This document shows, piece by piece, positions 37,743 through 52,648 of a DNA stretch of 61,362 nucleotides. This stretch comes from Nitrospirota bacterium. Its GTDB lineage: Bacteria > Nitrospirota > Thermodesulfovibrionia > Thermodesulfovibrionales > SM23-35. Location: positions 1 through 61,362 of the forward strand of contig JBFMCL010000020.1 of the NCBI GenBank assembly GCA_040754395.1, read 5' to 3'. Every line of letters starts with the position of its first letter. The first letter of the stretch is position 1. The position numbers were made by a program, and so were the translations under genes. A model generated the notes under the pieces. The model was not told the DNA's origin and made no database searches. It was given only the letters and a program-made list of their open reading frames with translations.

Positions 37743-38255
37743 TCAGGGCTCTTCAGTTGAATCCTTGGCTCCTTTGCCCCTTGAATCCTCGGTTTTTTCC
37801 AGTTCTTTCATCACCAGATTGATCAGTACGGGGATATTCTTCTCCATCAGCGGCGAAAGTTCCATGCTGGCGTTAAGGCTTTCCGGCTCAATGCCATAGA
37901 AAATGATTTCCGGGGGTTTGGTGCCCAAAAAGGAGGTAATCTGCACCACATCAGTGAAATCAATGCCGTGGGCTGAGCGCATTACCCCCTTTTTCCCGGC
38001 AAGGTCTTTATCGGTAAAACGGAACAGGGTTCCCGGTGGCGCATCTGCCTTTACCGCATCTACCACAATGACCTTTTTCCTTCCCTCGATACAGTATACG
38101 AGGTCAAGACCGCCAGTGCCACCGTCAATCACTTCGACATCAGGAGGCAGAGACATTTGCTTCATTTTTTCGGCCACACGGACGCCGATTCCTTCATCGG
38201 TGAGAAGGATGTTGCCGATGCCGAGGACGAGAATTGGTTTCAAAGGTTGTTCCAT
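37743..38255 (-). CDS. Hydrogenase maturation protease (HyaD/HybD family)
   Basis: An M52 endopeptidase that removes the C-terminal tail of the [NiFe] large subunit once nickel is in place. The 170 residues show ILVLGIGNILLTDEGIGVRV (Glu about 22 as nickel ligand), VIVVDAVKADAPPG (Asp ligand) and the His in RSAHGIDFTDVV. The C-terminal tail (DSRGKGAKDSTEEP) derives from a repeat-like sequence. It is encoded downstream of the hydrogenase operon on the same strand and is the best candidate to process the large subunit at 39580-41364. Confidence 0.92.
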   Translation of the reverse strand: MEQPLKPILVLGIGNILLTDEGIGVRVAEKMKQMSLPPDVEVIDGGTGGLDLVYCIEGRKKVIVVDAVKADAPPGTLFRFTDKDLAGKKGVMRSAHGIDFTDVVQITSFLGTKPPEIIFYGIEPESLNASMELSPLMEKNIPVLINLVMKELEKTEDSRGKGAKDSTEEP

Positions 38256-38290: not shown

Positions 38291-38810
38291 CAACGGGATT
38301 GCTTCGTCATTTCATTCCTCGCAATGACGGAACAGGTGGCATCGCAATGACTCCCATAGTCGTCATCGCGAGCCGGAGGCGTGGCGATCTCGCTGTTGTT
38401 CTGAAGTATGAGATTGCTTCGTCACTTTGTTCCTCGCAATGACGGAATAGGTGGCATCGCAATGACTCCCATAGTCGTCATCGCGAGCCGGAGGCGTGGC
38501 GATCTCGTTGTTGGCGTTGAACGACGGGATTGCTTCGTCATTTCATTCCTCGCAATGACGGAACAGGTGGCATCGCAATGACTCCCATAGTCGTCATCGC
38601 GAGCGAAGCGTGGCGATCTCGCTGTTGTTCTGAAGTATGAGATTGCTTCGTCACTTTGTTCCTCGCAATGACGGAATAGGCGAATGCAAAGATGGCACAA
38701 GGTTGTTATTGCATGACCTTGGTGCCTTGTCATTGCGAGCGACCAGCGGGAGCACGGCAATCTGTTTTTTTTAGGGTTGTCATCGCGAGCGGAGCGTGGC
38801 GATCTCATCA
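38291..38810. repeat. Palindromic repeat block with 231-base tandem duplication
   Basis: A segment beginning GGGATTGCTTCGTCATTTCA at 38295 recurs at 38526 (offset 231) and continues nearly identical to about 38692. It contains alternating GACGAAGCAATC-type and GGCGTGGCGATCTCG-type units. No coding region is supported. Confidence 0.8.
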
Positions 38811-39299: not shown

Positions 39300-39404
39300 C
39301 TCGCAATGACGGGTATAGGGGGACTCGCAATGACGGGTATAGGGGGACTCGCAATGACGGGTATAGGGGGACTCGCAGTGACGGGTATAGGGGGACTCGC
39401 AGTG
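39300..39404. repeat. 24-base tandem repeat, four full copies plus a partial
   Basis: Copies at 39300-39323, 39324-39347, 39348-39371 and 39372-39395 share CTCGCAATGACGGGTATAGG + GGGA (the fourth has one A-to-G change), followed by a partial copy to 39404. The unit is half of the dispersed palindrome plus a spacer, so it arose by slippage from that repeat. It is translatable antisense as PIPVIAS repeats but is not a gene. Confidence 0.9.
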
Positions 39405-39579: not shown

Positions 39580-41364
39580 CTACTCGACTTTTTCGATATT
39601 TGCCGGCCTTCCGTCAGGACCGATAGCAAATTTCAGCTTCTCTTTGCCGTCAGGACCCACGACGTGTACTGCGCAGGCGATACAGCAGTCAAACGGATGA
39701 ACGAGCCTGAGAATATTCAGGACCTTTTCTTCATCAGTTGTGCCGATGTAGGAGCCAACTAGTGACTGTTCCACAGGACCAGAAGTGCCGTTGTTGTCCT
39801 TCGGAGAGAAGTTCCATGTGGAAGGAACGACACACTGATATTTCGCGACCTTGCGGCCTTCGATCTTGATCCAGTGGCCCAATGCACCTCTCGGCGCCTC
39901 GCAGAGGCCAACGCCTGTGCTGATCATCTTCGAGATCTTCTTGTAGGTGAATGCTTGGCCGTTATCGACGAGCGCGCCGTTCCAGACAGCGCAGGCATCA
40001 GCAAGCAGTTTTGCCTCCAATGCCCGTGCAGCGTGCCTTCCGAGAGTGCTGATAAGGTCACTTACTGGTCTGTTTAGACCACCTCCAGTTCCTCCCATAA
40101 CAGCGTTAATCAGTGTCCGAACGCTGTAAGGACTTCCGCCCGAAATACCGAAGTTTGTCATGAAGGTATTTGTGACCGTTTGTCCAGTATCACTCGAGAG
40201 GTAGGATACAAACATGCGGGCCAGTGGACCGACTTCAAGGACCTGTGCGGCTGTACCATATCTCGGAGCCTTGAGCCAGCTGTACTGTGCATCTGCAGAA
40301 GACTTCATGTTCGGGACGGTCACACCGTCAAACGGATGGCGTCCATTGGTCTTAAGCACCGCATCCAGCGCGGGATAATCGTACCAGGAATTACCGACAT
40401 GCTCCACAATATTGGCCTGATCAAACGCACCTACGCTTGTACTTGCTGATGTCGCAATGCCTCTCTTGATGAGCAGGACATTACCAGTAGCGTTCATCGG
40501 GAAATCGCCATAGGAGAGGAAATTCCCGCAACCAAACCCCTGAGTCCAGAAAGAAACAAAGTTCGGAGTGGTTGATGTTGCGACCGTCACCACATTCGGT
40601 ATGTAGGTGTTGTCGATAAAGTCCCTGATCTGGTTCAGAATGTTAGTGAATTTAGTCTTTGTTTCTGTCAGATTGAACGGACCCCATGCATCGTAATCAG
40701 TCCCTACCTGATAAGGATTCGGATACGTTGTAGAGGTAAGGGTTGATACGCCACCGGGAATGATCGCGTTCTGGATCGGATGTCTGCCGCTGAATAAAGC
40801 ACTTGCCGTATGCGCCAGTCTCCTCATTTTGAGTGCCGTTACATAATTCACAATGAGCGCCTGTCCAAGAACAGAGCTGCCTGCAATGAGATCTGAAGTG
40901 GTATAGGACGGAGTCCATGGTGACATGTTCACAAGACCTGTCGAGAAGTTGATGAAGTCCGGTGCAGACAGATGGTAGAAGTGGGTAATGTGGGACATGA
41001 CCGTATCCATTCCATGAATGATGTTCCTGATCAATCTTCCATTCGTTGGGATAAGATACGTATTGTACGGAGCCGTATTGTCAATATCTCCATCTGAAGT
41101 ATTTTTTCCGGAATCAGTAACATACCCTAATGCATTGTCTAAGCTTCTAACTGAAGCTAACCCATGTGCGGTGGGTCAAACCGCTCATATACGCTGGGCA
41201 ATGACGGGTGCATCCCTCGGATCCCTCCTGTTCATGATGAGTTCGAAGCCCCTGAACAGATTGCCTGTACATTTTGCACTGGTAATAGTGCCGGCAGTCT
41301 CTGAAACAACCACTTTCAAATGTCCTTCAATCCGGCTTACAGGATCAATCGTAATTGTTGCCAT
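39580..41364 (-). CDS. [NiFe]-type hydrogenase large subunit with two in-frame TGA (selenocysteine) codons at the L1 cysteines
   Basis: Large subunit of a group 1 periplasmic uptake hydrogenase. The reading frame starts at the ATG at 41364, preceded by GGAGGT (41380-41375), giving MATITIDPVSRIEGHLKVVV and FRGFELIMNRRDPRDAP, the classic N-terminus. It then reads QRI-TGA-A-V-TGA-PTAHG. The TGAs (41187-41185 and 41178-41176, residues 60 and 63) replace exactly the two cysteines of L1 (RxCGxC), and the Gly is Ala. Reading on gives RNIIHGMDTVMSHITHFYHL and, at the C-terminus, L2 as FDCCIACAVH (C561, C564, H567; Pro replaced by Cys), followed by a 27-residue tail for protease removal. Read through, it is 594 residues, a normal length. 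Stop-free reading alone begins only at the TTG at 41034 and lacks L1, so it could not bind nickel. Selenocysteine is inferred. A double nonsense pseudogene is the alternative. Confidence 0.85.
41142..41158 (-). promoter_or_regulatory. Candidate bacterial SECIS hairpin for both TGA codons
   Basis: In the mRNA AGCUUC-AGUUA-GAAGCU forms a perfect 6-bp stem with a 5-base apical loop containing G then U at positions two and three. The loop begins 23 bases after the second TGA and 32 bases after the first. Bacterial SECIS models ask for a short stem, an apical loop with G in its first two positions and roughly 16-37 bases between UGA and loop, so one hairpin could serve both. A second small hairpin (GCGGU/ACCGC) starts directly after the first TGA. 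No folding was computed. Confidence 0.6.
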
Positions 41365-41384: not shown

Positions 41385-42749
41385 TTAGATAAATGTATAG
41401 AATTTTCCGACTTTGTCGGGGAACGTAGGCTCAGTGCAGCCATGGCAGTTGCCTCTGCTTCCTACGCACCAGTTAACACCATACTGTTCGGCTGTATCTG
41501 TATTCCATCTTCTGCGGGAACAGTCAGCCTTCGTCTTCCTTCCCTTGCAACCGAGAATTCCGAGACATCCGAGGGCATCAGACTTCCATTTCTCCCTTCC
41601 GAGTCTCTTGCTGTCGCCGGTTGGCCACCTGTAACTGTAGTCCGCATCGCCGGTGTAATTAATGTTCGGCGGGTAGGTGCCAGGAGGACCACCTACGCCA
41701 GGTGTAGTCCAGTAAGCTGGATCAGTATTTGGTGGAATTGGTGTGCCGGTCCATGGAGTGGTATACGGATCGGTATTGAGCGCCTTTTTCGGAATATTGT
41801 TATACCTCCATGGGCATGGCCCAGCGTTACACTGGTATTCACGATACCCATAATCCAACGGACGGCGATAGTTGGTCAGTGTTGGAATCGCAGCCGCAAG
41901 CCTTGCTTTAACACCATCTATGTCGCCATTATTGATTAAGTCTATCACTGGCTGTAATCCGCCGAGGGTACTTACGATATGGGCGATGGTGCCGACGATC
42001 CAGTCCGCATGTGGAGGACAGCCCGGAATGTTGATCGTTGCCTGTTCAATGGGCATTCCCAGAATGTTTGTCACCGGAGCAGCATCTACGCCAAGACTAT
42101 TGTCGAGCAGCGCACCAGCTCCGTATGTGGCTCCCTTATACAGCGCACCCCTTGCATCTGTGGCATTTCCCCTTGCTCCCGGAATTCCTCCGAAGGACGC
42201 ACAGGTGCCTACCGCAAGGACCGCGAGGGCATGTCTTGCAAGACGGCGTGCATTATAGAGCATGGTCTCATTGCTACCTCCGGTCAAATCGCCGACATGG
42301 CAAAAATCTCCGCGTGCTCTTCCGGTACCTTCAGGCGACGCGCACTGGATAGCACCCTCAAGCACAAGGACATACGGCAAATTGACTGATGCGGGATTAG
42401 CACCAGGAACCAATGCGTTATACAAAGACTCAACATAGGCTACTGATGATTTGGGTCCTGCGACTGTGCCAATCTCTGAACCGGCAGCGGTCATGATGGT
42501 CTTGTGGTATTTGAGGTCGAGGGTGTTGATCAGCAGATCGTCCGCCGTGGTGTAGAAAACGGAATTCAGCAAGCTCACGGAACAGCCGGTACATGCTGCG
42601 CCATCGAGCCAGATAACGGGTATACCGCCGCTCAGATAATCCTTCGCAAGCGCTTCATCGAGCTTCATTAATGTTGATGCCGAGAGCCCGAGCGCGCCTG
42701 CTGCAACGGAGCAGTATTTCAAAAACTCTCTACGAGTAATACGAAGCAT
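41385..42749 (-). CDS. [NiFe]-type hydrogenase small subunit, Tat-exported
   Basis: Electron-transfer subunit with three Fe-S clusters. The 454-residue precursor has a twin-arginine signal (RITRREFLKYCSVAAGALGL). Proximal cluster ligands appear in GAACTGCSVSL, VGTCASFGG and IPGCPPHADW. The C-terminal cluster region reads LGILGCKGRKTKADC, RRRWN, NWCVGSRGNCHGCTEPTFPD. A Pro/Thr/Tyr-rich insert of about 80 residues (around 300-380) separates the halves. Where most enzymes have a His three residues before a Cys for the distal cluster, this one has REYQC. It lies 20 bases upstream of the large-subunit start and follows the 71-aa gene by five bases. Confidence 0.92.
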   Translation of the reverse strand: MLRITRREFLKYCSVAAGALGLSASTLMKLDEALAKDYLSGGIPVIWLDGAACTGCSVSLLNSVFYTTADDLLINTLDLKYHKTIMTAAGSEIGTVAGPKSSVAYVESLYNALVPGANPASVNLPYVLVLEGAIQCASPEGTGRARGDFCHVGDLTGGSNETMLYNARRLARHALAVLAVGTCASFGGIPGARGNATDARGALYKGATYGAGALLDNSLGVDAAPVTNILGMPIEQATINIPGCPPHADWIVGTIAHIVSTLGGLQPVIDLINNGDIDGVKARLAAAIPTLTNYRRPLDYGYREYQCNAGPCPWRYNNIPKKALNTDPYTTPWTGTPIPPNTDPAYWTTPGVGGPPGTYPPNINYTGDADYSYRWPTGDSKRLGREKWKSDALGCLGILGCKGRKTKADCSRRRWNTDTAEQYGVNWCVGSRGNCHGCTEPTFPDKVGKFYTFI

Positions 42750-42973: not shown

Positions 42974-43729
42974 CTATAACCTGTTCACATGGCAATCTGC
43001 GCACATCTTCGATCCGGAGTTATCGGATCTCAGGAAAAACACCTGCGAACCGACTGATTTGCCTCCAACCATCTGCTTGCCGGGATATGCCACGGTATCA
43101 TGGACAGCATGGCATGTTGAGCACTCAAACTGATCAGTTGCTGCAGTGGTATCTGCACCGTATAACGGATACTTAGCACCGTTTGCTCCGAGAATCCAGT
43201 ACCTCCATGGTGCTGTAGGACACTGGGTCGCGATAGGAAAACCGTTGTTGTCCTGAAGGTTATCCCTGCTCGGATCATACGTGAAGCTGATCGGATGCTC
43301 ATTGCTGAGGTCCATGTCAAGCATTGCCCAGAAAGTCGGGTTCATCTCGTAATCGTAATTCTCATTTGAGTGAGAGCCCGGCCCGGGATAGTTCACAAGT
43401 GAACTGAATACGCCGTTATGGCATACCAGACAAAGTGATGAGGGTTCCGCAGGACCTGATTGCGCATCCACGGCCATATCGAAGGACGGGCTTCTGTACA
43501 TGGTGTATGACTGAGGGCCCTGATCCCTGTTCCAGAGCGGATACTGTCCTGTACCTGAGTGCGGTGAATGACACATTGCGCAGGGCTCAAGACCGGCCTC
43601 ACCGGTGATCACCTGCACATCATGCGGAGTTCCATAGATTCCGGGGGTTCCACCTTCTCTTGCCCAGAGGAATGTGACAAGACCCAAAATCAGTGTAAGT
43701 GCAGTTACGAGCACTAAGGTTTTCTTCAT
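42974..43729 (-). CDS. Tetrahaem c-type cytochrome, hydrogenase partner
   Basis: A 251-residue exported cytochrome with signal peptide (TLVLVTALTLILGLVTFLWA) and four haem motifs: CAMCH, CLVCH, CSTCH and CADCH. It is first in the operon before the small and large hydrogenase subunits and probably accepts electrons from the distal Fe-S cluster. The arrangement of haems and the phrase SLCLVCHNG near the middle match the cytochrome at 25592-26308, so the hydrogenase and the conduit operon use related carriers. GGAGGTG lies before the ATG. Confidence 0.9.
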   Translation of the reverse strand: MKKTLVLVTALTLILGLVTFLWAREGGTPGIYGTPHDVQVITGEAGLEPCAMCHSPHSGTGQYPLWNRDQGPQSYTMYRSPSFDMAVDAQSGPAEPSSLCLVCHNGVFSSLVNYPGPGSHSNENYDYEMNPTFWAMLDMDLSNEHPISFTYDPSRDNLQDNNGFPIATQCPTAPWRYWILGANGAKYPLYGADTTAATDQFECSTCHAVHDTVAYPGKQMVGGKSVGSQVFFLRSDNSGSKMCADCHVNRL

Positions 43730-44170: not shown

Positions 44171-44202
44171 TACTAAAGTTTACAAAGCACTAAACTTTAG
44201 TA
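44171..44202 (-). terminator. Inverted repeat at the end of the LuxR-type gene
   Basis: TACTAAAGTTT (44171-44181) and AAACTTTAGTA (44192-44202) form a perfect 11-bp stem that includes the stop codon of the regulator. The T tract is poor, so it may be a terminator or a protein-binding palindrome in the hydrogenase upstream region. Confidence 0.45.
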
Positions 44203-44843
44203 TTATATTCAGAGATTTTATGCGAATAAAGGGCAAGCTGGAGCCTGTCTGAAACCCCGATTTTTTTATAAATCCTGTTACAGTGGGACTTCACCGTCTG
44301 TTCACTGATATGGAGTTTCTGGGCAATCTCCTTGTTTCTGTACCCCTGGCAGACGAGAAGGACGATTTCTTTCTCTCTTTTGGCCAATGTCGTCTTTTTC
44401 TCCTGATTTCTCATGGAATTGATGATTTTCATGAGGGCATTCCGGTCGAGCCAGAGTTCTCCTGACTTGACCGCCTTCAGCGCTTTTTTCAGTAGAACCG
44501 AATCGGCGCTCGGGGGGAGAATTCCCACAACCCCCCTGAGAATCAGGTCTTTCAGATGCTTATTGGTCATGTGGCGTATCATCCGGTCGCCGATAAGAAG
44601 AATTTTCAGGCGGGATAATGTTGTATAGTCGTCCGGAAGATTCCAGAGGACGTCAAGATCAGAATTGTAGTCGGCGAGTATCACATCAGGCTTCATTTGA
44701 GAAAGCCAGTCAGTGTCTTTCCTTGTATCGGGGCTGACAGGAAACACCCCGATTATTTCAATATCGCGCTCATCTTCGAGAAGTTTTTTGAGGCCCTCGC
44801 CGAAAATTGTATTGCTGCACCCTATGAAAAGTCTCAACGCCAT
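44190..44843 (-). CDS. LuxR/NarL-type response regulator with degenerate acidic pocket
   Basis: A 217-residue protein. The N-terminal ~125 residues follow a receiver fold (LRLFIGCSNTIFGEGLKKLL, DVILADYNSDLD, LKILLIGDRM), with an Asp near 54-57 at the phosphoacceptor position, but the usual Asp-Asp/Glu pair after strand 1 is replaced by GCSN. The C-terminal LuxR helix-turn-helix is standard (LAKREKEIVLLVCQGYRNKE, IAQKLHISEQTVKSHCNRIY). It is transcribed toward the hydrogenase operon from just upstream, so it is the likely local regulator. Phosphorylation may not be its trigger. Confidence 0.88.
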   Translation of the reverse strand: MALRLFIGCSNTIFGEGLKKLLEDERDIEIIGVFPVSPDTRKDTDWLSQMKPDVILADYNSDLDVLWNLPDDYTTLSRLKILLIGDRMIRHMTNKHLKDLILRGVVGILPPSADSVLLKKALKAVKSGELWLDRNALMKIINSMRNQEKKTTLAKREKEIVLLVCQGYRNKEIAQKLHISEQTVKSHCNRIYKKIGVSDRLQLALYSHKISEYNTKV

Positions 44844-45199: not shown

Positions 45200-48100
45200 T
45201 TATGTCCCATCGGCCTTATTTGGGTTGCCCCCTTTGCCCTTTGCATCCCTATCCCCCGATGCTTTCATCTTCTTTCTGCACTCCACAAGGAGCTTCTGCG
45301 TATCCGCAGTGAAGTTGCCTGTTTCAATTGCTGCTTCCAGTAACGATGCCGCGTACTTATATAAATGAGTGTCGATAAATTGCCTGGCAAAAAATGAAAA
45401 ATAGGTTGCAGGGCTGAAATTCATCTCTCTCAATGCATTGATATATGCGAACCCCTTTTCTTTTTGCCCTGTACAGATAAGTACCATTGCAAGGGCAGTC
45501 ATCGCTTTCGGATATCCGGGCTCTTTTTGCAGCAATGCTTCAAGACGGGCAATGGCGTTTTCTACGGCACCGGTAAAAACTTCACAGGTTGCATAATGGA
45601 CAACTGTATCTCTCGACACAGGTGAAATCTGCATTGCCCGGTTATATGCCGAAATCGCTTCTGCATAGCGGCCAAGATTATAATTAACATTTCCCATGCT
45701 TTCAAGGGCATTCGAGAAATCGGGCTTTTTCGAGACAGCTTTCTCCAGGTATTCCAGTGCCTCCGGATATTTTCCGATTCCGGATGCCTGGACAGCAAGA
45801 TCAAAGAGAGCCTTTGCATCATCGCCGCCTTTTTGGACAAGTCTTTCCTTTCCCAGCATGAAGTAGTACTCGTGCTTGGCTGCCATTTTTTCTTCATCAA
45901 GCAGTCCGTAATGGTGAACGGGTATTTCACTGCGCTGCACAGAAATCCCCAGTGTAGTGAGCGATGGTTCGATCCGCTCATGCACAGGGTCCTCAAAACG
46001 AATGCGAGGATCATTCGGAAATAACCGTACCTTCTCGCCGTGGAACCATCCTGTGCCCGCTTCCTCTGACGCGTATGCCCCATCATTTTTAATCCATCCT
46101 GAAGTATTCACTGGTACGACATAATTACGGCTGACGAGTGTATAGGCGACAGCGGCAGGATTTAATGATTCCGGAGATTCAGGGTCTGCATGCTCTTCAG
46201 AGTCATCGTGGGCCGGAGGCGTGGCGATCTCTCTGTTGGCGTTGACCGACGAGATTGCTTCGTCGCTTCGTTCCTCGCAATGACCTTTTTGTGTCGTCAT
46301 CGCGGGTGACCGGAGGGGGTGAGGCAACCTGTCTTTTGTCGTCATCGCGGGCGGAGCGTGGCGATCTCGCTGTTCTGAGTGAGATTGCTTCGTCACTGCA
46401 TTCCTCGCAATGACGGGGGAAGAGGTCCTCCTCGCAATGACTGTCTGTTGAAGTTTACCCAAATCCTTGAATCCTCGACCCCTCGACCCCTCTGTAATGA
46501 GTTCTCTGAGCCTTCCATAGTCAGAGGAAGAAATAGCTTCATCCGCGTCCAGAATCAGTATCCATTTGCCGGTAGCCTTCGAGAGCGAAAAATTCCTCGC
46601 ATCAGAGAAGCTGTCAGTCCACGCAAAATCATATACCTTAGCGCCGAGGGCTGTTGCAATATCTTTTGTCCTGTCTGTTGAGCCTGTGTCAACAACGATC
46701 ATCTCATCTGCAAGGCCTTTTACGCTCATTAGGGCGCGGGCAATGTTATCCTGCTCATTCTTTGCGATCATGCATAAAGAGACAGAGAGTGATGGAGCCT
46801 CATTGAGATTGGGGGATTGTGAATCAGAGATCGTTTGAGACCGGCGGAGATCTGAGACAGTGTGAGATTCGTTGGAAGAGGAGCGAAACGGTCTGTCTTC
46901 TTCCTCTTGTAAGTCATCGCGGATGGAGCGTGGCGATTGCGGTGTTGTTCCGAACGATGAGATTGCTTCGTCGCGTTGCTCCTCGCAATGACTCCCATAG
47001 TCCTCATCGCTGGCGACCGGAGGGGGCGAGGCAACCTGTCTTTTGTCGTCATCGCGAGCCGGAGGCGTGGCGATCTCTCTGTTGGTGTTGAACGACGGGA
47101 TTGCTTCGTCACTGCGTTCCTCGCAATGACTCCCATAGTCCTCATCGCGAGCCGGAGGCGTGGCGATCTCTCTGTTGGCGTTGAACGATGAGATTGCTTC
47201 GTCACTGCGTTCCTCGCAATGACGGGGGAAAAGGTGCTCCTTGCAATGATCTTTTTGTGTCGTCATTGCGGGTGACCGGAGGGGGTGAGGCAACCTGTCT
47301 TTTGTCGTCATCGCGGGCGGAGCGTGGCGATCCCGCTGTCGGCATTCCGCGAGCAGACGGCGCGTTTTTTCAGTCGCAAGACCCAGCATCACTGTTGCCT
47401 CAAGCAGCCGGGAGGCATAATCAAACCGTTTCAATGAGATTAACTGTTCCGCCATATTTGTAAAATATGGTCCCGGATTGAACATGGAGTCCTGTGACTT
47501 TTTGGCATATTCAAATCCCTCATCTTTTCTGTCAGAGCAGAAATATGATACTGCGAGCAATTGCACTACCAGCGGATTATCAGATTCTATTGCATGGATA
47601 TTTTTGAGAGCACGGATAGCTGCATCAGGATTGCCGGCATAGAGTTCACAGGTTGCATACATAAAACTTGCATCTATGGAATCAGGGGATAGCTGGAGAG
47701 CCTTTTTGTAAGACGAGAGGGCTTCCTCATACCTCCCGAGGCTGTAGTATGATGTCCCTAACCCATAGTAGGCTTTTCCAATATCAGGCCTGATAGCAAT
47801 AAGTTGTTGCCAGTATTCCAGAGCTTCATCAAATTTCTCGAGTTCTGAAGCCTGTACCGCTAATTCATACAGAGCAACCGGATCTTTTTCACCCTGCTTG
47901 GAGAGTTTTTTTCTTCCCATTTGATAATACAGCTCACCTTTTGCAAGCACATGGTGCTTCATTAATTTCCCATAATGGTGGATGGGTATTTCTGTTGGCT
48001 TGATATCTATGCCGATTTTTTTCAGAGAATTTTCAACCATTTCGTGAACGGGATTTTCGAACCGGATGCGGGAGTCATTCGGGAACAGCCTCACTTTTCT

Positions 48101-51100
48101 GCTCGGGAACCATCCTGAGCCGGCCTCTTCCCGGTATTTCCCGTCGTTGGGATACCAGTTTACGCAGACTTCACCGACATAGTTCCTCGAGACGAATGAA
48201 TAGGCTACGGAAGGTTTGGAGGTTCCCTTTTTGTCATCGCGGGTGAACGGAGGCGTGGCGATCTCTCTGTTGGCGTTGAACGGCGGGATTGCTTCGTCAC
48301 CGTGTTCCTCGCAATGACGGAATGGGTTGGAGGACGGAATTGTATCGTCGCGCTGCTCTTCGCAATGACCTTTTTGTGTCGTCATCGCGAGCGGAGCGTG
48401 GCGATCTCGCTGTTCCAAGTGAGATTGCGTTGTCGCTTCGCTCCTCGCAATGACGGGGGAAGAGGTGCTCCTCGCAATGACTGTCTGTTGAAGTTTGTCC
48501 AAATCCTTGAATCCTCGACCCCTCGACCCCTCTGTAATGAGTTCTCTGAGCCTTTCATAATCCGAAGCAGCGATCACCTCATCGGCATCAAGAAGCAGTA
48601 TCCAATCTCCTGTTGCCTTTGAGATAGAGAAATTACGCGCGTCGGAAAAGTTGTCTGTCCACGGGAAATCATGTACGGTTGCGCCAAACACCCGTGCAAT
48701 CTTCTTTGTCCTGTCTGTGGAACCTGTATCTACCACTATCATTTCGTCAATAACAGGTTGAACACTCTGAAGCGCGTGCATGATATTTTGCTCTTCGTTT
48801 TTTGCGATCATGCATAAAGAGATAGTGCCCTCTTTTTTGACGTTGCGATCCGCCTCAGACGGAGTGGCAATCTCTTCCGTTTCGATGTCACTATGAGATT
48901 GCTTCGTCGTCCTGTCCCGACGCATGTCGGGATCGGCATTCCTCGCAATGTCAGCATTTTCTCCCTCAATTGACCCCATTTCCCCTTGCATCCTATTAAA
49001 TGAACCCCTTGACGACCTTATCTCCATCACTCCCACCTTCTGCCTCAGCTTCAGCGCAAGATTGAGTGTATCGTCATCGATCCCGAAGGCAATCAACGCC
49101 TTTTGTATCTCGTCCATTGCCTGTCGGAAGAGCCCCTGCTGAAGGAGGTTGTCGATAAGGATAAACTGCAGTTTTCTGCAGAATGGATAAAGCCCAATTG
49201 CCTCACGGAAGCGTTTTTCTGCTTCAGGCAATTTCCCGAGATCTACCGCAGCAGAATAGTAGTTGATCACTATGTCTTCAGACGTAGAGGAGAGAACAAA
49301 TGCCTTTTCGAACAGGGTGAATGCATCCTCTTTTTTCCCGTGACTCCATTTAAGCGCACCAAGATTTGAATAGGATTCACCATATCCCATGTCGGCATCC
49401 AGCGCCTTTTGAAAAAATCTCTCCGCGTCAGGATACAGGAGTTTCGCAAAAGCGAGAGTTCCCTTGAGATTCAGGGCTCCGGCAGAGGTGCGCATATTCA
49501 GGACTTCATCGGCATACTGCTCAGCTTCAGTCAGCTGACGCAACCCTTCCTTACAGTAGCCCATAAGCTCAAGCGCCATTACGTCATTCTTTATTCCCTC
49601 CGGCAAGTGTTCCAGGACATTAAGGGCCTCTTTGAATTTGCCGTCATCGATCAGTAATTCTGCGAGGGCGAAGTAGAGTCTTTTGTCATCAGGATATGCG
49701 TCGATCCCCTGCCTGAGCGTAACGACTGCGTTCCCTTTTTCTCCCTTTTGCCTCAATTCATCCGCAAGAAAAAGGCTGTCCATGCTGAACCGTTTCCTTG
49801 CGTCGGCTTCAGGACCGCCCTGATGTATCCATTGCTCGATAAAGACTCGTCTGTCTTTATTGAGGAGAGAGGCAATGTCTGCAGTCCGGCTGTCAGGTCT
49901 GTGATGGCCATGGAAATGCACAAATACATCACCGGCGATCATATTCCTGTACCCTTCCTCTGAAGCTCTGAAACAATAATCCTTATCCGCATATTTAGGC
50001 ATGTCATACCGCTCATCGAAGAGACCGATCTTCTCCGCCATCTCGTGACTGAAGAGCATGCAGAAACTGTCCACGTTTTTTACATACACACGACGGTATC
50101 TGTTCCTGTCCCTGAATTCCTTTGCAAACGCTTCAAGGGCTGTTCCGTCCGCGTTTCGTTCCTCACAATGCCCCGTCTTTTTGTCATTGCGAGCCGAAGG
50201 CGAAGAAATCTCGTTGTTGAGCTTGATGCGGGAGATTGCTTCGTCGTCCGTCTTGGCGGACTCCTCGTAATGACGAGAAGAAAAGGTGTCATTGCGAGCA
50301 GATTCTTTTTTTGTCATTGCGAGCCCGGAGGGCGTGGCAATCTTAACTCCCTGCCGTCCTTCCATGTTTACCGTCATGGGCCCGACTATCCCGATATCGT
50401 CAGCACTGCTGTGGCATTCAAGCAGACCCGTAAGCCAGTCTTTCGTGACTTCAACCGCATCATTCAGAAGAACGATGTGCTCACCCGATGATTCAGCCAT
50501 CCCCAGGTTGCAGGCTTGGGAAAAACCCAAAGGCTGTGATGAAAGATTCAGGGATTCGAGGGTTCGAGGATTCGAGTCCATTGACCCCTTGACTCCTTGA
50601 CTCCCTCCCCCCTCAATGTGAGAGGGTACTTTTATCAATCTGCAATTCCTGTTTTCCTTCAGAAGCCTCCGGAGCCATTTCGGCGGGGCAAACGAGGCAA
50701 TAAGGGGAACAAATATCAGTTCATATGACTCTCTGGTATGTTTCAGAACGCTCTCCACGCACTTTCTTGAATACTGCCGCTGACCTGAGAGAAGGATAAC
50801 GATGGAAACCAATCCTTCAGTCCTGAATTGATGCGGGGCAGGATCAGTTTCCTGTTCAACAGGGTGCATCATCTGCGTGTCACTTAATATATTCATGGGC
50901 TCTTTCAGTTCCGGCGCGGAACCAGTATATACTAAGTGTTTAATCTCCGAAGGTTCAGGAACGGGGATATAATGTTTTTTTGGATCAAAGGGCTGGGCCA
51001 GAATATCCGACAACATCTGTGGTGAATTATGATGTCCATATGGCAGGTCTTTGGGCAAATTCCACTTACTCTTGTATCTTTCCCATGCCTCCCACAATTG

Positions 51101-52648
51101 TCTGTTATACTGCATGTCGCCACGGCCCTGTGGTCCTCCCGTGTGATGGATAAAGACATCATTTGCGATATACGTCTTGAACCCGGCGATATTTGCCCGC
51201 CAGGTATAGTCATCGTCCTCAAACCCGAATTTTCCGAACGATGCATCAATGCTCCCGATCTTATCAATGACTTCTCTCCGGATGCACATGCAGAATCCGA
51301 CAAGCCGGACAGAGGGCGTTAGTTGACCGTGATGCTGTTGCGTAAACAGTGACGCGAAATTTTCCAGTTCATCGATGTTCTGGTATGAAACATTTGGCAC
51401 AATCTGCGCTCCAGAGACATAATTTGAGCGGGGACCCAGCACCCCAATGTAAGGATGAGACGTCATATGCGCGATGAATCTTGTCACCCATCCTTTTGTA
51501 ACGATCGTGTCATTGTCCAGCAGGATAACGTAATTACCTTTTGCGAGCGACATCGCCTGGGCGCGGGCAGGCGGGCAGCCGACATTTGTCGGATTTTCAA
51601 TCAGTATGATATCCGGCAACGAACGCAGGTACTCGAGCGAACCGTCTGTTGAAGCATTATCCACAACGATAATCTCATGCCTCTCAGGAGTATTTTTCCG
51701 TATTGATTCAAGGCAGGCTTTTATATTTTCAAGTCCATTGTAATTCAGAATGAGAATGGATACGAGTGGAGCCTCCTCGTGTATCACAGGAGAAGGAACA
51801 AATGGCTTCCCCGACGCGTCAATAAAGCTCAGCTCAACTTCCTGATGGCAGGCATTTGGGGTAAAATGCATGAATTGCCTGAGATCGATCCTGTATCCCT
51901 TCTCGAAGAGTTCAGTCAGTTTCTCAGGGCTGTATTCCCTCTTATTACTTGCCCTGTTTGTCCACGATTGCTGGACAATATTTGCCGGCGTGCAAAAAGC
52001 AGCAGACTGCTCAAAACACAGAAGGAAGGGTTTTTCTTTTTGAAATATGGATTTGTTGGCGTCAATGAATGCTTCAAGAGTATTTGGATTACGGAACGGA
52101 AATTGAGCGATAAAGGGCAGGATATCTTCTGTCCTATAAACAGAACTCGAGACCTCAAGTGGATAGCCAAAGTCACATTCACCCTTTGACCAATCGTACT
52201 TCAGAATGCCCTTGCCTACGGCTTCAAAATCGGGAAGTCGCTGATCCCTGTTCAGAGAATAGCAGTATTGGGTATTTCTTCCCAGACGAAGAGAGAATCC
52301 AAGAGCGTCAGTGTGACTTTCCAGACTTTGGAGAACCTCAAACATGCTGAAATCCCTTACAAATAAGCTGTTATCACGAAGAAATAGAACATGGTGAAAA
52401 GGAGCCAGTAGGGCACACATATCGCTTCGGAAATCCTGCTCACGAATAAACTGAATGGATGTATGCTGTCTGTACTCTTCAGCAAGTTTCTCATATTGTG
52501 TGGTATGCAAGGTAGCTGAAGTAGTATATAAAATGCGGATTTGAGTTGTTTCGATATCTCGACCATATAAGAGAAAGGAACGCAGTACTGCATCAAGCTT
52601 TAGAGCGCGGTCTTTACTGAATATCAGAACGATGCAAGAGAATTCCAT
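45200..52648 (-). CDS. Giant multi-domain glycosyltransferase/TPR protein with in-frame repeat insertions
   Basis: A 2482-residue cytoplasmic protein. Order: an N-terminal glycosyltransferase-like region (1-285), GT2 domain A (from ~294; SILILNYNGLENIKACLESI, LLDNDT), GT2 domain B (from ~610; VSIVILLSGQRQYSRKCVES), a TPR stretch (~960-1210), GT2 domain C (from ~1271; ISLCMIAKNEEQNI, LLLDADE), TPRs, GT2 domain D (from ~1958; VSLCMIAKNEQDNI, LILDADE) and C-terminal TPRs. C and D are duplicated modules of the SunS/O-glycosylation type. Five tracts encoded by dispersed palindromic repeats (such as HCEERSDEAISS and RDRHAPPAMTT) interrupt domains or linkers without breaking the frame. It probably builds surface glycan or glycosylates proteins. 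Confidence 0.85.
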   Translation of the reverse strand: MEFSCIVLIFSKDRALKLDAVLRSFLLYGRDIETTQIRILYTTSATLHTTQYEKLAEEYRQHTSIQFIREQDFRSDMCALLAPFHHVLFLRDNSLFVRDFSMFEVLQSLESHTDALGFSLRLGRNTQYCYSLNRDQRLPDFEAVGKGILKYDWSKGECDFGYPLEVSSSVYRTEDILPFIAQFPFRNPNTLEAFIDANKSIFQKEKPFLLCFEQSAAFCTPANIVQQSWTNRASNKREYSPEKLTELFEKGYRIDLRQFMHFTPNACHQEVELSFIDASGKPFVPSPVIHEEAPLVSILILNYNGLENIKACLESIRKNTPERHEIIVVDNASTDGSLEYLRSLPDIILIENPTNVGCPPARAQAMSLAKGNYVILLDNDTIVTKGWVTRFIAHMTSHPYIGVLGPRSNYVSGAQIVPNVSYQNIDELENFASLFTQQHHGQLTPSVRLVGFCMCIRREVIDKIGSIDASFGKFGFEDDDYTWRANIAGFKTYIANDVFIHHTGGPQGRGDMQYNRQLWEAWERYKSKWNLPKDLPYGHHNSPQMLSDILAQPFDPKKHYIPVPEPSEIKHLVYTGSAPELKEPMNILSDTQMMHPVEQETDPAPHQFRTEGLVSIVILLSGQRQYSRKCVESVLKHTRESYELIFVPLIASFAPPKWLRRLLKENRNCRLIKVPSHIEGGGSQGVKGSMDSNPRTLESLNLSSQPLGFSQACNLGMAESSGEHIVLLNDAVEVTKDWLTGLLECHSSADDIGIVGPMTVNMEGRQGVKIATPSGLAMTKKESARNDTFSSRHYEESAKTDDEAISRIKLNNEISSPSARNDKKTGHCEERNADGTALEAFAKEFRDRNRYRRVYVKNVDSFCMLFSHEMAEKIGLFDERYDMPKYADKDYCFRASEEGYRNMIAGDVFVHFHGHHRPDSRTADIASLLNKDRRVFIEQWIHQGGPEADARKRFSMDSLFLADELRQKGEKGNAVVTLRQGIDAYPDDKRLYFALAELLIDDGKFKEALNVLEHLPEGIKNDVMALELMGYCKEGLRQLTEAEQYADEVLNMRTSAGALNLKGTLAFAKLLYPDAERFFQKALDADMGYGESYSNLGALKWSHGKKEDAFTLFEKAFVLSSTSEDIVINYYSAAVDLGKLPEAEKRFREAIGLYPFCRKLQFILIDNLLQQGLFRQAMDEIQKALIAFGIDDDTLNLALKLRQKVGVMEIRSSRGSFNRMQGEMGSIEGENADIARNADPDMRRDRTTKQSHSDIETEEIATPSEADRNVKKEGTISLCMIAKNEEQNIMHALQSVQPVIDEMIVVDTGSTDRTKKIARVFGATVHDFPWTDNFSDARNFSISKATGDWILLLDADEVIAASDYERLRELITEGSRGRGFKDLDKLQQTVIARSTSSPVIARSEATTQSHLEQRDRHAPLAMTTQKGHCEEQRDDTIPSSNPFRHCEEHGDEAIPPFNANREIATPPFTRDDKKGTSKPSVAYSFVSRNYVGEVCVNWYPNDGKYREEAGSGWFPSRKVRLFPNDSRIRFENPVHEMVENSLKKIGIDIKPTEIPIHHYGKLMKHHVLAKGELYYQMGRKKLSKQGEKDPVALYELAVQASELEKFDEALEYWQQLIAIRPDIGKAYYGLGTSYYSLGRYEEALSSYKKALQLSPDSIDASFMYATCELYAGNPDAAIRALKNIHAIESDNPLVVQLLAVSYFCSDRKDEGFEYAKKSQDSMFNPGPYFTNMAEQLISLKRFDYASRLLEATVMLGLATEKTRRLLAECRQRDRHAPPAMTTKDRLPHPLRSPAMTTQKDHCKEHLFPRHCEERSDEAISSFNANREIATPPARDEDYGSHCEERSDEAIPSFNTNREIATPPARDDDKRQVASPPPVASDEDYGSHCEEQRDEAISSFGTTPQSPRSIRDDLQEEEDRPFRSSSNESHTVSDLRRSQTISDSQSPNLNEAPSLSVSLCMIAKNEQDNIARALMSVKGLADEMIVVDTGSTDRTKDIATALGAKVYDFAWTDSFSDARNFSLSKATGKWILILDADEAISSSDYGRLRELITEGSRGRGFKDLGKLQQTVIARRTSSPVIARNAVTKQSHSEQRDRHAPPAMTTKDRLPHPLRSPAMTTQKGHCEERSDEAISSVNANREIATPPAHDDSEEHADPESPESLNPAAVAYTLVSRNYVVPVNTSGWIKNDGAYASEEAGTGWFHGEKVRLFPNDPRIRFEDPVHERIEPSLTTLGISVQRSEIPVHHYGLLDEEKMAAKHEYYFMLGKERLVQKGGDDAKALFDLAVQASGIGKYPEALEYLEKAVSKKPDFSNALESMGNVNYNLGRYAEAISAYNRAMQISPVSRDTVVHYATCEVFTGAVENAIARLEALLQKEPGYPKAMTALAMVLICTGQKEKGFAYINALREMNFSPATYFSFFARQFIDTHLYKYAASLLEAAIETGNFTADTQKLLVECRKKMKASGDRDAKGKGGNPNKADGT
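46195..46450. repeat. In-frame repeat insertion within GT2 domain D
   Basis: Palindromic units (GTGGGCCGGAGGCGTGGCGA, GATTGCTTCGTC..CTCGCAATGAC) split domain D between LRELITEGSRGRGFKDL and VAYTLVSRNY. Encoded text includes HCEERSDEAISSVNANREIA. The frame stays open. Confidence 0.8.
46905..47345. repeat. In-frame repeat insertion between TPR region and GT2 domain D
   Basis: About six palindromic units occupy ~440 bases between the last TPR before domain D (LLEATVMLGLATEKTRRLL) and the start of domain D. Encoded text includes two HCEERSDEAI copies. The frame stays open. Confidence 0.8.
48230..48500. repeat. In-frame repeat insertion within GT2 domain C
   Basis: Palindromic units lie at the same place in domain C as the insertion in domain D, after ELITEGSRGRGFKDLDKLQQ. 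The ~80 bases on the plus-strand right side (about 48480-48550) are nearly identical to 46420-46510. Confidence 0.8.
48835..48960. repeat. In-frame repeat insertion before GT2 domain C
   Basis: GCAATCTCTTCCGTTTCGAT, GAGATTGCTTCGTCGTCCTG and GGCATTCCTCGCAATGTCAG encode NADPDMRRDRTTKQSHSDIE ahead of domain C. The frame stays open. Confidence 0.7.
50150..50350. repeat. In-frame repeat insertion within GT2 domain B
   Basis: Units GTCATTGCGAGCCGAAGGCG, GAGATTGCTTCGTCGTCCGT and CATTGCGAGCCCGGAGGGCG lie between GIVGPMTVNMEGRQGVK and ALEAFAKEFRDRNRY of domain B. The frame stays open. Confidence 0.75.

Follow-up and report, generated by a model that had tools for sequence, protein, structure and literature searches.

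A putative group-1 [NiFe]-hydrogenase with UGA codons at both L1 nickel ligands in a Nitrospirota genome

One gene in the analyzed stretch of Nitrospirota DNA (61,362 nucleotides in total, hereinafter the window) most probably (about 0.88) codes for a functional group-1 [NiFe]-hydrogenase of the periplasm, in which both L1 nickel ligands, residues 60 and 63, would be selenocysteine (Sec). The predicted enzyme combines features of [NiFe]-hydrogenases and of bacterial selenoproteins, yet does not have the Sec position that defines [NiFeSe] enzymes. There is also good reason to think that it represents a natural class of [NiFe] enzymes with two L1 selenolates, one of them bridging, which would have arisen more than once via CxxU, is widespread within a single class of Nitrospirota but rare among Chloroflexota, and would use one SECIS hairpin for two Sec residues nine nucleotides apart. 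No natural hydrogenase with L1 Sec or with two Sec residues was found in the literature searched, which excluded preprints and most subscription papers. In that literature, L1 Sec occurs only in engineered single variants of E. coli enzymes, in accordance with the statement in the preliminary description of this DNA that no described enzyme with Sec at both L1 positions was known.

The large-subunit gene and its operon

The frame of the large subunit runs on the minus strand from ATG (41364–41362) to TAG (39582–39580) and comprises 594 codons, among which TGA codons 60 and 63 are the only in-frame stops. The L1 region reads AQRI-TGA-AV-TGA-PTAHG (RI-U-AV-U-PTAHG with Sec), and both TGA codons align with the two L1 cysteines (RICGVC) of the D. 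vulgaris [NiFeSe] large subunit (5jsu). Re-reading of the minus strand confirmed the coordinates, start, length and L1 motif that had been given for this double-TGA gene, as well as the claim that its only two stops are TGA codons located at the L1 cysteines in an otherwise open 594-codon frame. The chance of two random nonsense codons falling on exactly these two of 594 positions is about 1/176,000; this agrees with the previous opinion that such mutations are unlikely, the decisive point being the recurrence of the codons in other genomes.

According to profile analysis, the large subunit matches PF00374 with 375 bits (cut-off 25.8), and it aligns end to end with 5jsu (2–572). The AlphaFold model, which superseded an earlier one built from 10 sequences (pLDDT 52), has a pLDDT of 79.5 and finds its best PDB match in 3ze7, the D. 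vulgaris [NiFeSe] hydrogenase (TMt 0.87). The group-1 motifs RxCxxC (L1) and DPCxxCxxH (L2) are recognizable only if both UGAs are taken to stand for Cys-like ligands. The first L2 position, where HysA has its defining Sec, is Cys here (codon 561, TGT), and the scores against the HysA-type NCBIfam models are below the cut-offs (NF033181, 454 bits vs. 600; NF045518, 352 vs. 780). In the hydrogenase homologues compared, neither the Glu of the RIEGH motif nor the APRG Arg varies; therefore, the proton path and the second shell look intact. The L2 motifs of the window (39685–39690) and of the genome G013 have the form D-C-C-x-x-C, in which an extra Cys replaces the usual Pro beside the terminal nickel ligand; in the genome G007, this site is occupied by Phe.

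The operon contains, in this order, the genes for cytochrome c, the small subunit, the large subunit and the maturation protease (Table 1). The same order, following a LuxR-type regulator, was found in the nearest relative, G013, in which the cytochrome c gene and the regulator upstream of the operon occupy the same places as in the window. The partner small subunit and the maturation protease of a group-1 hydrogenase are thus present, and their identification by profiles, the latter as an endopeptidase of the HycI/HupD family, upheld the earlier statement that operon and protease are intact.

A dispersed repeat of the CGTCATTGCGAG type is present in the window in 60 copies vs. 0.35 expected. 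Several copies are located inside a 2482-codon glycosyltransferase/TPR-like open frame (45200–52648), where they are translated in frame as HCEERSDEAIS-like peptides. The same repeat family also forms tandem arrays just downstream of the hydrogenase gene, at 39300–39401 and 38297–38680, with units of 24 bp (4.2 copies) and 115 bp (3.3 copies).

Table 1. Features of the hydrogenase locus in the window
Feature	Position	Strand	Remarks
[NiFe]-hydrogenase large subunit	39580..41364	−	594 aa with both TGAs read through; stop TAG
TGA codon 60	41185..41187	−	First L1 ligand position, predicted terminal Ni ligand; putatively read as Sec
TGA codon 63	41176..41178	−	Second L1 ligand position, predicted Ni-Fe bridging ligand; putatively read as Sec
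L2 motif D-C-C-I-A-C-A-V-H	39664..39690	−	Codons 561 (TGT) and 564 (TGC), both Cys
SECIS-like hairpin AGCUUC-AGUUA-GAAGCU	41142..41158	−	6-bp stem, compensatory changes, invariant loop GU
Hydrogenase small subunit	41385..42749	−	Tat-type leader; PF01058, PF14720, TIGR01409
c-type cytochrome	42974..43729	−	Doubled CXXCH motifs; likely electron acceptor of the operon; PF09699, PF14522
Hydrogenase maturation endopeptidase, HycI/HupD family	37743..38255	−	TIGR00072 (146.7 bits), PF01750
LuxR-type response regulator	44190..44843	−	PF00196; upstream of the operon

Recurrence and descent of the L1 UGA codons

A search for homologues in 60 related genomes revealed genes with two TGA codons or one inside the frame. 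Its first batch consisted of 39 translated rows representing 36 distinct genes, and the L1 motif was UxxU (TGA, TGA) in 25 rows, CxxU (TGC, TGA) in seven and CxxC in seven. Both TGAs, or the second alone, were consequently found at L1 in 32 of the 39 rows (29 of the 36 distinct genes). UxxC at L1 was not seen among the homologues, although the search patterns permitted it. In each full-length UxxU locus checked (more than 30), the ~541–557 codons from RIEGH to L2 include precisely two TGAs, and L2 has Cys at both ligand positions in all UxxU homologues. The in-frame UGAs thus align with Cys of homologues, as in selenoproteins. The comparison with relatives proposed in the preliminary description gave aligned TGA/TGA or TGC/TGA at exactly the two codons; scattered nonsense mutations, which had been named there as a counter-indication, were not seen in the relatives, TGAs being confined to the L1 codons.

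The exact double-TGA L1 pattern at the DNA level was detected in 56 of 396 genomes of the phylum, the genome of the window included, and in 43 of its 170 genera, all belonging to the class of the window. The reversed control pattern gave 0 matches in the same 396 genomes. The double-UGA gene is not a private accident of one genome. A contig search with a single protein gave no matches, and the same search with an alignment (A2) found named relatives. In Nitrospirota, UxxU genes belong to Bacterium BMS3Bbin08, Nitrospirae bacterium DBS2-1.bin112 and Nitrospirota bacterium M_MetaBat.199; outside the phylum, UxxU was found in Chloroflexi bacterium 626A.7 and an uncultured Anaerolineae, and CxxU in an uncultured Leptolinea. 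Another UxxU gene lies in a genome assembled as one contig of 2.37 Mb (G030), possibly that of a cultured species. The trait is rare in Chloroflexota (3 of 400 genomes).

Downstream of the UGAs, the sequence evolves under strong purifying selection. In close pairs, dN/dS past the TGAs is ~0.02–0.09 (for example, dN 0.040 and dS 2.06 for the pair L058/L060), and the same region of the window and G013 gives dN 0.37 and dS 1.73.

On the phylogenetic tree, a minimum of 10 changes is needed to account for the distribution of CxxC, CxxU and UxxU. The clade formed by the window and G013 is nested in the CxxU relatives G007 and G011, apart from the main UxxU clade; owing to the long branches, its exact placement is less sure than this separation. 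When all UxxU rows were forced together, the log-likelihood was 305 lower and the constraint was rejected (AU p 3e-75, quick tree), and with it a single origin of UxxU. The nested position of the UxxU clade of the window in CxxU relatives suggests that Sec was acquired earlier at the bridging position than at the terminal one. In addition, a CxxU clade of four sequences (L064, L065, L078 and L079) has its own, stronger hairpin, GCACUG-GCUU-CAGUGC, with a different spacing from the UGA, in line with a separate origin.

Decoding of the UGA codons

The distance to the start of the apical loop of the SECIS-like hairpin is 23 nt from the second UGA and 32 nt from the first. Counted from the first base of UGA 60, the stem is formed by columns 30–35 and 41–46, and the loop GU (columns 37–38) is present in 42 of 42 UxxU sequences. 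In the twelve sequences of the 6-bp register, a set picked for this one register, 72 of 72 cells pair, both partners have changed in four of the six pairs, and covariation scores 0.62 vs. 0.21 in shuffles and ≤0.09 when slid. Other members use a second register, ACCGC-CUC-GGU-GAG-A-GCGGU; since two registers occur, RNAalifold finds no consensus structure in the mixed alignment. With the fold anchored on the loop, the hairpin reaches −6.5 kcal/mol or better in 42 of 42 UxxU sequences vs. 16 of 42 CxxC sequences. The stability of the hairpin exceeds that of synonymous codon shuffles modestly, with a mean z of −1.02 for 42 UxxU and −0.09 for 42 CxxC sequences (Mann–Whitney p 1.4e-6, not corrected for descent). 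Unconstrained minimum free energy gave no signal for UxxU, whereas the loop-anchored test did.

The genome of the window contains a tRNA-Sec (UCA anticodon, G73, CCA) and SelD (G000:C11:63923–64846), itself with an in-frame UGA (SCSGUASKFSP); both are expected of a bacterium that makes selenoproteins. Together with the aligned codons in relatives, they support the initial proposal of a candidate double-selenocysteine hydrogenase. The suggested check for selA, selB, selC and selD was positive in part: tRNA-Sec and SelD were found, and SelA and SelB were not detected over the cut-off in the assembly, which is rated 99.96% complete. Taken by itself, the latter result would amount to the counter-evidence named in the preliminary description. 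SelA is over the cut-off in 56 of 61 genomes and SelB in 58 of 61; SelB was found in each of the five named L1-UGA genomes tested and was absent in one CxxC control. In eight genomes of the same family, selB, aminopeptidase-like, purF-like and selA genes adjoin, and the block is often flanked by ispF-, PIN/TRAM- and htrA-like genes (names read from sequence). None of the four purF-, ispF-, PIN/TRAM- and aminopeptidase-like genes was found in the genome of the window, where the sole match to the block is a distant one (26%) to the glutamine-amidotransferase part. The tRNA-Sec gene, which is convergent with selA in a relative, is separated here by transposase-like ORFs from a contig end 1.3 kb away. 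Because the neighbors of the block are also missing and tRNA-Sec is close to a contig end, an assembly gap is the likely and simplest, though not proven, account of the missing selA and selB. Their absence is weakened as an argument against Sec, since the conserved neighbors are missing too and both genes occur in nearly all relatives.

A second tRNA-Sec-like gene of the same genome (C16:80860–80959; L010:1501–1600) has the GCA anticodon and U73 and fits the selC* tRNA-Cys known in Nitrospirae and other phyla, which has its own SelB in some deltaproteobacteria (PMC7609411). In the genomes G013, G011, G018, G007 and G003, a selC*-type tRNA gene is located directly upstream of a second SelB gene. 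This pair occurs in three of four same-family genomes with an L1-UGA hydrogenase, and the genome of the window has the tRNA.

The existence of such a tRNA in this family, with its own SelB, raises the question of whether both UGAs are read as Cys, by the selC*-type tRNA-Cys or through reassignment, giving an ordinary CxxC hydrogenase. Some selC* tRNA-Cys of other bacteria even have a UCA anticodon (PMC7609411). However, the selC*-type tRNA found here combines GCA with U73 and would therefore read UGC/UGU and not UGA, while the tRNA with UCA ends in G73-CCA like a true tRNA-Sec. G73 was found in 29 of 29 UCA tRNAs inspected in relatives, and many UxxU genomes have a single tRNA-Sec-like gene. 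The misfit of anticodon and discriminator base speaks against UGA decoding by the selC* tRNA-Cys, and reassignment is rejected since TGA remains a stop, ending several of the hydrogenase genes themselves. Reading as Cys is thus very improbable as a whole. A sequencing error, an assembly artefact or a pseudogene might be suspected in a single draft genome with in-frame stops, but the same codons in dozens of independent genomes (56 of 396, control 0) and the strong purifying selection past the stops practically exclude these explanations.

The gene may be dead or decaying in the genome of the window after a loss of selA and selB and encode a true selenoprotein in relatives; the lack of SelA and SelB in so complete an assembly speaks for this. 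Such decay seems improbable, because the neighbors that adjoin these genes in the eight same-family genomes, including purF- and ispF-like ones, are missing as well, tRNA-Sec (beside selA in a relative) lies near a contig end behind transposase-like ORFs, SelD retains its in-frame UGA, the large-subunit frame is intact, and the operon and protease are retained. It is also unlikely, though worth considering, that efficient decoding is limited to one of the UGAs; the enzyme would then be a mixture or mostly truncated, with little of the double-Sec form. In favor of this, the second UGA lies 9 nt closer to the hairpin, CxxU is common and UxxC was not seen; moreover, the 32-nt spacing of the loop from the first UGA is long, which counts against the double-Sec reading. 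Nevertheless, both UGAs have been kept over long evolution, and the pair arose more than once, neither of which would be expected of a first UGA that is read poorly.

Proposed enzyme and comparison with known systems

In the preferred reading, a double-Sec hydrogenase, the Tat-exported large and small subunits would pass electrons from H2 (or to protons) to the multiheme c-type cytochrome. Both UGAs would be decoded by tRNA-Sec with SelB, and in the simplest view the one hairpin downstream of the second UGA would direct both insertions. By homology with D. gigas-type enzymes, in which the first of the two L1 ligands binds nickel terminally and the second one links it to iron, residue 60 would be terminal and residue 63 bridging. 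Nickel would then probably be held by two L1 selenolates and two L2 thiolates. The presence of Sec in the protein, the geometry of the ligands, the reaction with H2 and any improvement in activity or oxygen resistance are predictions from sequence. Two L1 selenolates would alter the nickel-iron electronics and the oxidation products; effects on oxygen sensitivity and kinetics are conjectural, and protection against irreversible oxidation is one candidate benefit of L1 Sec. In E. coli Hyd-2, placing one Sec at any of the four positions gives variants that mature and are active, and only the L2 terminal variant was reported to differ markedly in voltammetry (PMC11212049), so the benefit of L1 Sec cannot be deduced from them.

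Why Sec evolved at one nickel ligand and what effect it has elsewhere has so far been approached via engineered single-Sec E. coli hydrogenases. The natural matched CxxC, CxxU and UxxU enzymes of related genomes, including those with a putative bridging selenolate, offer a ready comparative series for studying oxygen resistance, catalytic bias and product inhibition. They also raise a question of translation, namely how two UGAs nine bases apart would both be read as Sec. As ordinary gene callers cut or split UGA-containing genes, annotations of this lineage probably miss part of its hydrogen metabolism.

Known [NiFeSe] hydrogenases contain one Sec, at the first L2 position. HysAB of Desulfovibrio vulgaris and Desulfomicrobium baculatum share with the window enzyme the group-1 fold and a nickel site with UGA-recoded Sec, and are the closest in sequence and structure; however, their single Sec is the terminal L2 ligand facing the catalytic Glu and their L1 has Cys, whereas the window gene has UGA/UGA at L1 and Cys at L2. 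The CxxC group-1 enzymes (D. vulgaris Miyazaki, E. coli Hyd-2, homologues L042 and L043) are similar in fold, operon parts and residues around the site, but have four nickel cysteines and lack UGA. FrhA and MvhA/VhuU of archaea and bacteria are also selenoproteins among hydrogenase large subunits, with the difference that each has one Sec and that their UxxC is the L2 motif (PMC13188914). The same 2026 review mentions hydrogenase large subunits only as single-Sec UxxC, in agreement with the earlier remark that [NiFeSe] enzymes have one Sec at L2, and states that [NiFeSe] enzymes are exclusive to sulfate reducers and methanogens (PMC13188914). Sec at L1 positions is shared with the engineered Cys-to-Sec variants of E. 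coli Hyd-1 and Hyd-2 (Evans et al.; PMC11212049); unlike the window gene, these are laboratory-made, UAG-encoded and have one Sec each, no double L1 variant being described there. Two UGA-encoded Sec residues separated by two residues are likewise present in the UxxU Prx-like oxidoreductases and a metal-binding/MerA-like protein (PMC13188914), but those are unrelated thiol-redox or metal-binding proteins without a bimetallic catalytic site.
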